From the NCBI GenBank assembly GCA_002839335.1, contig PGXU01000026.1, positions 1 through 39,876 on the forward strand: 39,876 nucleotides of DNA, given 5' to 3'. Source of the DNA: Spirochaetae bacterium HGW-Spirochaetae-4 (GTDB taxonomy: Bacteria > Spirochaetota > Spirochaetia > Sphaerochaetales > Sphaerochaetaceae). The notes below the pieces were generated by a model. The model saw nothing but the letters and a program-made list of their open reading frames with translations, was not told the origin of the DNA and did no database searches. The position numbers and the translations under genes are program-made. This document shows, one piece after another, positions 11,534-13,751 of this stretch (position 1 is its first letter; each line of letters starts with the position of its first letter).

Positions 11534-12994
11534 ATGAAGAAGACGATTCGAACGAAGCCCCGGGTGCCGATGCTTCTTGCAGTCCTATTGCTCACCTTCA
11601 CCTCCACGCTGGCAGCCCAGGAGTTGCCCCTGTTGTTGCAGGAACGCTATATCATGGCCCACCTCGGATTCCAACGACAGTATGCCACCTCATACGAATC
11701 TCCCGACGACATATCGCTGGGATACACGATATTCAATGGGGAATTTCCCGTCATCATCCATGCCGAAGGGCCCGAACTCTCCCTCTATTCGGGAAGCCCG
11801 CTCTTTATCCCCGCGTTCCTATCGGGGGGAACAACCAACCAGATCGGATATCTCGATGCATACCGCAACTACACACCGATAGCACTGCTGTCGCTCGGAT
11901 GGCGCCACGACCTGCTGAAAACCGGCAATTTGGCCAACGATGGATTCTTCGCCTCATGGGGCTGGCGTGCCGGCATCCTTTCGGGAGGCCTGGGCTACCA
12001 TTTCGCCCACGAACGGCCCGTCGGATACCTGGGGGCATCACTGGATAATGTGGGCATCAGCCTTTCGGCATCACCCGTGAATCTCAAGGCGACCCTCACC
12101 TACCGTACCGAGAAATCCTGGAGCATAAGCACTTCCGTGGAACTGGATGAAGACGGACGGGCGAGTTTTGGCGTGGGATTCGGCCTATCGCGCAAGGACT
12201 ACGCCGCCGAAGCCATTTTCACCGACGACTGGAACCTGTCGGTCGCCCACCGGGGCTCCATGTTGAATGCCCCCGAAAATACCCATTCGGCATTCGAATG
12301 GGCACTCGGGCAACCCCACTTTGTCGCAATCGAAACCGATATACAATTGACCTCCGATGGTAAATTCCTCTTGATCCACGATCCGATCCTGCTCCGATAC
12401 AGCCATGGTTTCGATATGGTCAGGAATTTGACCAGCGAAGAGTTGAGATCACTCGATATGGGATCCTGGTTCTCCCCCGATTTCGCCGGAGCCCAAGTAC
12501 TGGACCTGGCCCAATTGGGTGAGATCAGCAACGCAAATCCGGATGTCTACTGGCTGCTCGAGTTGAAGAACCTCATCTGGACCCGAGAGGAAGCCACGCG
12601 GTTCCTCAAGGAAATCGACGAAGCTTTCGACCATCCGGAAAAGATCGGCTTCTATACCGTCACCCTGGAGATGATGGAGTTGATGCAATCACTCACCGAC
12701 CGTCCCGTGGGAATCCAGCTCGATACGGTCAAGATGATGTTCTACTACAGCGACCACCTCATGCCGCTGGTGAAAGCCGAGTATCGCCCGCTGGTGCGGA
12801 ACGCCGACTTCTTTACGCTGTTATCCTCCAAATTCGACAGGCAGGAACAGTTGATCGAGCTTTCCGAGGAGTTGGGAATACCGGTGATGCTGTGGAATTT
12901 CCACGATGTGATTGCCGGCTATGTTCCCAGGGACCTGCGCCACTACCCCCTCGGCATGCCCAAGATGCTCGACGGCGCCTTGTTCAAGGAGTAG
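11534..12994 (+). CDS. Secreted protein: N-terminal beta-rich domain fused to glycerophosphodiester phosphodiesterase
   Basis: A 486-residue protein. A signal peptide (hydrophobic core about residues 12-26, ending LAAQ) leads into some 200 residues of alternating polar and aromatic beta strands (WRHDLLKTG, FFASWGWRAG, YHFAHERPVGYLGASL) that I do not recognise but that look like an outer-membrane or periplasmic beta domain. From about residue 235 a GDPD domain begins: VAHRGSMLNAPENT, then IETDIQLTSDGKF with the metal-binding Glu and Asp, LIHDPILL, and LLELK. GDPDs hydrolyse glycerophosphodiesters to glycerol-3-phosphate and an alcohol. No good ribosome site precedes ATG 11534, so the start is moderately sure. 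Confidence 0.82.
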   Translation: MKKTIRTKPRVPMLLAVLLLTFTSTLAAQELPLLLQERYIMAHLGFQRQYATSYESPDDISLGYTIFNGEFPVIIHAEGPELSLYSGSPLFIPAFLSGGTTNQIGYLDAYRNYTPIALLSLGWRHDLLKTGNLANDGFFASWGWRAGILSGGLGYHFAHERPVGYLGASLDNVGISLSASPVNLKATLTYRTEKSWSISTSVELDEDGRASFGVGFGLSRKDYAAEAIFTDDWNLSVAHRGSMLNAPENTHSAFEWALGQPHFVAIETDIQLTSDGKFLLIHDPILLRYSHGFDMVRNLTSEELRSLDMGSWFSPDFAGAQVLDLAQLGEISNANPDVYWLLELKNLIWTREEATRFLKEIDEAFDHPEKIGFYTVTLEMMELMQSLTDRPVGIQLDTVKMMFYYSDHLMPLVKAEYRPLVRNADFFTLLSSKFDRQEQLIELSEELGIPVMLWNFHDVIAGYVPRDLRHYPLGMPKMLDGALFKE

Positions 12995-13081
12995 TCCTTC
13001 CCCTCCGGATATCCGCTGTTCGCGCATCAACTGGACAAACCGGTTCCATTTGGGCATAGTGGGTATACACAAGGAGTCGAC

Positions 13082-13420
13082 ATGTGGGGCAAAAAGACGA
13101 AACAACCTCAAGGATCACCACTTGAATCCATACCATTCACAACCGTTGAAGGCCACCAGGCTACACAACCGTTGACCGTATTCGCGCTGAGTACCTGCGG
13201 TTTCTGCCGACGGGCGATCACCTTCCTCAACGACAGCGGTGTTGCCTACCGGTATGTCTATATGGACAAACTGGACAAGCCGTCGCAGGATGCAGTCCGT
13301 GCCTATGTGAAGCAAACCTTCCATACGATGCTTTCCTATCCGTTCCTCTGTATCGGGGAGGACGATTACCTCACGGGCTTCATCAGGGCCTCGTGGGAAA
13401 AGGAGCTGGGCAATGGGTGA
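13082..13420 (+). CDS. Glutaredoxin-like protein
   Basis: A 112-residue thioredoxin-fold protein with a CGFC redox motif at residues 39-42 (LSTCGFCRRAITFL), preceded by an unusual polar N-terminal extension of about 30 residues. The cis-proline region reads LSYPFLCIGEDDYLTGF. The ATG at 13082 has AAGGAG. It overlaps the next gene by 8 nt, and that gene encodes a ferredoxin:thioredoxin reductase-like catalytic subunit. The pair therefore looks like a dedicated ferredoxin-driven dithiol system in which the reductase reduces this glutaredoxin. The substrate of the pair is unknown. Confidence 0.85.
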   Translation: MWGKKTKQPQGSPLESIPFTTVEGHQATQPLTVFALSTCGFCRRAITFLNDSGVAYRYVYMDKLDKPSQDAVRAYVKQTFHTMLSYPFLCIGEDDYLTGFIRASWEKELGNG

Positions 13421-13751
13421 TGCCAAAACGATCGATGTCGGTCAATTCGTGCACAATGTGGCGAAAAACAAGGGATGGAGCCTCAACGGCGATGCCGAAT
13501 TCCTCCAATCCCTGGTAGAGGGCCTGGAGATGAACCTCCAACGGTTGGGATATCTGCAATGCCCCTGCCGCCTCTCCTGGGATGATCGGGAAAAGGACAA
13601 GGACATACTCTGTCCGTGTGTCTACGCCGCCGACGATATCGCCGAATACGGGCACTGCTTCTGCTCGCTTTTCCTCTCGCCCGAATTCGCCGCATTGGGA
13701 ACAGAACCGGTGAGCATACCGGAACGACGCCCCGAGAACTTGTTTCCCTGA
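13413..13751 (+). CDS. Ferredoxin:thioredoxin reductase catalytic (beta) subunit-like protein
   Basis: A 112-residue protein with the six-cysteine pattern of FTR catalytic subunits: CPC at 50-52, CPC at 67-69, and HCFC with cysteines at 82 and 84. In the family these hold a [4Fe-4S] cluster next to a redox-active disulfide and pass electrons from ferredoxin to a thioredoxin-fold partner. The start overlaps the glutaredoxin gene by 8 nt, which implies translational coupling and a functional pair. No variable (alpha) subunit gene is next to it, as in other non-photosynthetic FTR homologues. A GC-rich hairpin follows 42 nt downstream. Confidence 0.9.
   Translation: MGDAKTIDVGQFVHNVAKNKGWSLNGDAEFLQSLVEGLEMNLQRLGYLQCPCRLSWDDREKDKDILCPCVYAADDIAEYGHCFCSLFLSPEFAALGTEPVSIPERRPENLFP

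Follow-up and report, generated by a model that had tools for sequence, protein, structure and literature searches.

Plant and cyanobacterial ferredoxin:thioredoxin reductase (FTR) has a variable subunit beside its catalytic chain, carries a CHC motif with an active-site His, and takes thioredoxin as its substrate. The ferredoxin:disulfide reductase (FDR) of Methanosarcina (4TPU, 173 aa, a molecule that the PDB names rubredoxin) has CYC at this position and a glutaredoxin (Grx) partner with the motif CVWC; it bears a C-terminal rubredoxin domain and is reported to be driven by ferredoxin, and work by Prakash in 2018 is said to have found that FDR reduces methanoredoxin. The review PMC7278568 treats the [4Fe-4S] enzymes FTR and FDR as a class of redoxin reductases, citing Prakash 2018 for FDR from Archaea and Bacteria, and PMC6262447 states, citing Wei 2015, that FDR reduces MaTrx5. 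In Desulfotalea psychrophila, a Grx and a ferredoxin disulfide reductase are fused (7PWE, 196 aa), which leaves no room for rubredoxin; a literature search found no paper describing this entry. A disulfide-reducing chain of this kind is thus already known: the methanogenic archaeon Methanosarcina has FDR acting with either methanoredoxin or NrdH, and Desulfotalea has the fusion.

The locus described here lies in a window of 39,876 nucleotides (the whole stretch of DNA that was analysed) from a Spirochaetota MAG whose assembly is 99.9% complete. It is a pair of genes that has the same two domains as 7PWE in the same order, the Grx preceding the FTR-type catalytic protein (FTRc). By fold, 7PWE is also the nearest solved relative of the FTRc (37-40% identity in the structural match), but it is one fused chain with Tyr in its CxC motif, whereas the window has two genes and Phe. 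By sequence, the closest match of the FTRc is the Methanosarcina FDR, and methanoredoxin (5CAX) is among the closest relatives of the Grx; unlike that system, the window pair has no rubredoxin, has Phe in the CxC motif, and has a CGFC partner. The plant and cyanobacterial enzyme shares with the window FTRc the fold of its catalytic chain and the six cysteines. For the rubredoxin-free, unfused, Phe-bearing form, the literature yielded no measurement of Grx reduction, of the cluster content or of binding to ferredoxin.

The gene pair

The Grx gene (13082..13420, plus strand) encodes a 112-aa protein of the methanoredoxin-like family, and the FTRc gene (13413..13751, plus strand) encodes a predicted [4Fe-4S] disulfide reductase of the FTR/FDR catalytic type, also of 112 aa, in a minimal form without rubredoxin. 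A preliminary description of this DNA had given the two genes as overlapping, and its coordinates are exact: the overlap is 8 nt long (ATGGGTGA; 13413..13420, plus strand), and each gene has a good ribosome-binding site on the same strand, AAGGAG for the Grx (13071..13076, 5 nt before the start codon) and AGGAG for the FTRc (13401..13405, 7 nt before the start codon and within the end of the Grx gene). Its identification of the products as a CGFC Grx and an FTR catalytic-type protein also holds, as the Pfam matches, the LSTCGFC motif and the six cysteines all agree. That description further remarked on the lack of a variable subunit; no variable subunit (FTRv) gene was recognised adjoining the pair at this locus, but this is normal for this FTR-like branch.

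No convincing promoter or terminator was found at the pair, the single promoter-like site comparing with 0.7 expected. The same strand carries, 5' of the pair, a glycerophosphodiester phosphodiesterase-type gene; in the product of 11534-12994 the glycerophosphodiester phosphodiesterase domain occupies residues 239-458 only, the initial ~240 residues having no Pfam match at E 1e-5. The 3' neighbour is an unrelated gene on the opposite strand, with no Pfam match. A profile search of the host genome for PF02943 matched the FTRc gene at 13413-13751 only. HGW-Spirochaetae-2 has an FTRc that is 96% identical to that of the window.

The glutaredoxin

The Grx matches the Pfam Glutaredoxin family (PF00462, E 1.8e-7). 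Its CGFC active site (residues 39-42; codons at 13196..13207, plus strand) includes C39 and C42, which together with T38 are invariant in 36 aligned sequences. The protein has the features of the methanoredoxin-like family, namely L36-S-T-C, an invariant P87, and a Grx fold that matches 5cax and 3nzn. Its best solved relatives are a Methanosarcina glutaredoxin (3nzn) and methanoredoxin (5cax), and the model also matches the Grx domain of 7pwe. The same solved relatives of both Grx and FTRc were recovered by sequence.

The N-terminal extension ascribed to the Grx in the preliminary description turns out to be mostly the usual N-terminus of the family, with ~14 residues extra. From about residue 15 on, the sequence aligns with the family N-terminus (xIPFTTVEG, with G24 nearly invariant), in which a segment FTxVeG precedes the first strand, so that only ~14 residues are lineage-specific. 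In the AlphaFold model (pLDDT 92.2), low confidence is limited to about the first 10 residues; from residue 11 on the prediction is confident and shows a short helix and a strand, so that the segment belongs mostly to the family fold.

The FTR-type protein

The FTRc scores 80.5 bits against PF02943 (cut-off 22), and its model (pLDDT 94.5) matches 7pwe, 4tpu and plant FTR (TMq 0.84-0.60). The cysteine pattern is C50-P-C52 (13560..13568), C67-P-C69 (13611..13619) and C82-F-C84, the last preceded by His81 (H81-C82-F83-C84 at 13653..13664), all on the plus strand, and the six cysteines are invariant in the alignment. By homology with plant FTR, we take C50, C67, C69 and C82 to hold a [4Fe-4S] cluster, and C52 and C84 to form the redox-active disulfide.

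The middle residue of the CxC motif in the window, Phe83, is neither the His of the plant-type CHC nor the Tyr of the Methanosarcina-type CYC. Across the Grx-paired family this residue is Tyr in 58/92 members, Phe in 34/92 and His in 0/92. A His directly before the motif (GHC[Y/F]C) occurs in 57/69 members of the minimal form and in no rubredoxin-type member, and one may speculate that His81 might replace the missing acid-base group.

Pairing across Spirochaetota

The preliminary description had proposed a look at co-occurrence across genomes, and the outcome is clear. Among 393 Spirochaetota genomes, 93 match PF02943; ten of these were set aside, eight as short or broken matches (G186, G253, G257, G281, G359, G434, G444, G457), one for its SelD-fused form (G349) and one for its selenoprotein-like form (G195), leaving 83 with a typical FTRc. 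A Grx profile (alignment A1), built from paired Grx sequences and hence tuned to them, was run against the same 393 genomes and found a Grx in 83/83 genomes with a typical FTRc but in 1/310 others; every paired Grx scored at least 98 bits, against a weak 38 bits for the stray unpaired match. The Fisher value for the co-occurrence (1.7e-85) overstates the case, since genomes within one phylum are not independent samples and the cases do not count as independent evidence one by one.

The Grx immediately precedes the FTRc, on the same strand, in every one of the 92 resolved pairs, with 25-122 nt between the end of the Grx frame and the conserved core of the FTRc, and all 92 of these FTRc relatives have the six catalytic cysteines complete. 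Many families have the pair in a patchy distribution, and its flanking genes vary widely among them, a pattern that speaks for selection acting on the pair; conserved as it is throughout the phylum, the window pair is not a chance arrangement. On plasmids only one distant relative was seen, at 30% identity. In one genome the Grx family occurs a second time (83.5 bits; G408:C93:11024-11290), away from the FTRc pair. An opposite-strand neighbour that seemed conserved in 26 loci was rejected, because most of the ORFs involved ran antisense to the pair, and it vanished once ORFs overlapping the pair were excluded.

Two co-varying subtypes

The pairs fall into two subtypes. In one, 21 FTRc proteins end in a rubredoxin-like tail (CxxCGY...CPxC) resembling that described for the Methanosarcina FDR, and all 21 are partnered by a C[I/V/G]WC Grx; a 22nd CxWC pair (L063) sits near a contig end. 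The other 69 analysed pairs have no rubredoxin, and the partner motif is CGFC, CAFC, CGHC, CSFC or CIHC (C[G/A/S/I][F/H]C). The window pair is of this minimal form, its FTRc ending 28 residues past the CxC motif with no C-terminal rubredoxin domain.

In the FTRc tree, the rubredoxin-type proteins cluster with the M. acetivorans FDR, with no minimal-type member inside (support 0.90), and in the Grx tree the CxWC partners cluster with weak support (0.51). Distances in the two trees are correlated (Mantel r 0.78 overall, 0.64 and 0.68 within subtypes; 0/999 permutations reached the observed r). This correlation supports inheritance as a unit and falls short of proving contact, since a shared species history alone can yield it.

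Other FTR-type forms in the phylum

Five loci (L099, L100, L101, L102 and L104) were initially weak, stop-containing matches that suggested broken genes, a reading we rejected: they hold complete mini-FTRs of another subtype, ~65 aa long (CPC..CMC..CHC), each with a WCGPC thioredoxin gene directly 3'. Like the window pair, they combine an FTR-type pattern of cysteines with a neighbouring redoxin gene, but they have CHC and a thioredoxin downstream, whereas the window has a Grx upstream. They apparently constitute a minimal ferredoxin-thioredoxin system in another spirochaete family. At L006 and L103, also considered as FTR genes, there is no believable gene.

Two further forms are more unusual. 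A 648-aa frame in L088 (G349:C9; L088:2716-4659, minus strand) fuses a full SelD (selenide, water dikinase; 445 bits) with an FTR-type domain whose motifs are CPC/CPC/CHC; no Grx was found at that locus near this CHC form, and passages on SelD fusions in the 2008 selenoproteome paper do not name this one. L098 (G195:C140) encodes a protein of the FtrB_double_U type in which an in-frame TGA takes the place of the last Cys of CHC (CH-stop-ALFG), likely a selenocysteine; the name of the model expects two Sec, and there is one TGA only within the stretch. Judged by the CxC residues of the Grx-paired, mini-FTR and SelD-fused forms, Tyr or Phe goes with Grx in these data, and His with thioredoxin or with no redoxin.

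Electron supply in the host genome

Neither of two glutamate-cysteine ligase families that catalyse the first step towards glutathione (PF04262, PF04107) has a match in the host genome, while controls matched, so that by these two families the glutathione production in the same cell that goes with a classical glutathione-dependent Grx was not found; glutathione might still come by uptake or from another synthesis route. The genome matches the pyruvate:ferredoxin oxidoreductase (POR) family twice, once within a 1185-aa frame, and yields many ferredoxin-type matches, of which one lies in a frame of 66 aa. The preliminary description had called the pathway self-contained, which does not hold: the genes for ferredoxin and for its reducing enzyme lie elsewhere in the genome, so the pair draws on the common ferredoxin pool. 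Two proteins resembling thioredoxin reductase (TrxR) score 339 and 316 bits, just under the curated cut-off of 343, and NADPH-driven disulfide reduction is therefore probably also available. The genome also encodes one stand-alone rubredoxin of 60 aa, which might serve the rubredoxin-free FTRc as a separate electron carrier. This rubredoxin lies ~5.5 kb from the 1185-aa POR frame (G000:C15:48488-54624).

Gene neighbours in relatives

An IscS-type cysteine desulfurase lies 3' of the FTRc on the same strand in 13 loci, and ThiI (checked with Pfam) is on the FTRc strand in 11. ThiC is 3' of the pair in 6 loci, along with ThiM in 5 and Thi4 in 4, and the class III ribonucleotide reductase NrdD is divergent and upstream in 5 loci of the CxWC/rubredoxin group. 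These groups of neighbours (IscS/ThiI, thiamine, NrdD) are phylogenetically clustered. An IscS-ThiI gene fusion suspected in L109 and L132 was dismissed, the long frame before ThiI being spurious and IscS lying in another, overlapping frame. In the window's own genome, IscS-ThiI (L144) and NrdD accompanied by an apparent NrdG (L143) lie on other contigs than the pair. In L144 (G000:C37) IscS adjoins ThiI without a Grx-FTRc pair; in other families the pair directly precedes the IscS-ThiI operon.

As possible clients of the Grx, the neighbours in relatives point to sulfur transfer by IscS/ThiI, to the making of thiamine and to class III ribonucleotide reductase, a weaker reading than those drawn from homologues. 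The catalytic disulfide of ThiI has to be re-reduced at each turnover, by a reductant not known to be settled in vivo. We infer that ThiI may be one such client.

Discussion

We consider it highly probable that the two-gene operon is a glutathione-independent, disulfide-reducing chain from ferredoxin through FTRc to Grx. In such a chain, reduced ferredoxin would pass single electrons to the [4Fe-4S] cluster of the FTR-type protein, the cluster would reduce the adjacent C52-C84 disulfide, the C52/C84 dithiol would reduce the CGFC disulfide of its dedicated Grx, and the Grx would then reduce disulfides or persulfides of clients. The genes and their motifs, the predicted folds, the strict linkage with its co-variation, the neighbours and the genome content are direct results; we infer the cluster, the electron flow with ferredoxin as donor, and the Grx as direct substrate from likeness to the characterised enzymes. 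The route from ferredoxin to Grx is the best reading because no glutathione synthesis was found, yet POR, ferredoxins and separate TrxR-like proteins are present. The preliminary description had proposed a dedicated route of this kind; co-occurrence, folds and genome content make it the best-supported reading, and the mechanism is probably right but not new, since the FDR literature and the solved Desulfotalea fusion make a Grx-serving, ferredoxin-linked FTR an established kind. Among the points that weigh against the chain are the Phe at the active-site Tyr/His position of the window FTRc, and the two TrxR-like proteins, which could in principle reduce the Grx.

The FTRc might instead reduce thioredoxins encoded elsewhere, the Grx being a separate client or regulator that shares the transcript. 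Plant FTR does reduce thioredoxins, Methanosarcina FDR is reported to reduce Trx5 too (PMC6262447), and in nine loci, most of the IscS/ThiI type, the opposite strand holds a thioredoxin-like ORF close by; we nevertheless regard this as improbable, given the absolute linkage of Grx and FTRc, the co-variation of the partner motif, the natural Grx-FTR fusion, and the fact that the thioredoxin-linked FTRs of the phylum are of the different, mini CHC type. That small overlapping genes are common in bacteria is general knowledge, and adjacency could then reflect incidental operon packing with no direct partnership of the proteins, but the linkage of 92/92 resolved pairs despite widely differing flanks, along with the fusion protein, makes this extremely improbable.

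It would also be conceivable that NADPH-thioredoxin reductase or a low-molecular-weight thiol recharges the Grx, and that the cluster of the FTRc is used otherwise, for example in persulfide or selenium chemistry. The TrxR-like proteins of the host, the FTR-like domain fused to SelD in another spirochaete, and the hint of sulfur chemistry in the IscS/ThiI neighbours all lean this way. Set against them are the negative search for glutathione synthesis genes in the host genome and the fact that the Grx family essentially never occurs without FTRc, and we hold this reading to be very improbable.

Taking the ferredoxin-FTRc-Grx chain further, the rubredoxin-free pair might be the dedicated reductant of sulfur-transfer enzymes in anaerobes, acting at the disulfide or persulfide step of IscS-ThiI and in thiamine thiazole synthesis. 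Phe would here replace the catalytic Tyr/His while His81 handled protons, and the CxC middle residue (His versus Tyr/Phe) would predict service to thioredoxin or to Grx. We put this forward tentatively, as an unlikely extension.

What is new here is the strictness of the pairing across the phylum, the two co-varying subtypes, the Phe active site, the contrast with thioredoxin-linked mini-FTRs, and the operon context. By their strict pairing, Grx-linked FTRs can be recognised as a class of their own alongside those linked to thioredoxin, and the minimal, Phe-bearing form offers a natural test of the role of Tyr/His in FTR/FDR chemistry. The gene neighbours offer testable clients, ThiI among them. 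For a bacterium without detectable glutathione synthesis, the pair offers a clear answer to what reduces this Grx, most likely ferredoxin, acting through the cluster enzyme.
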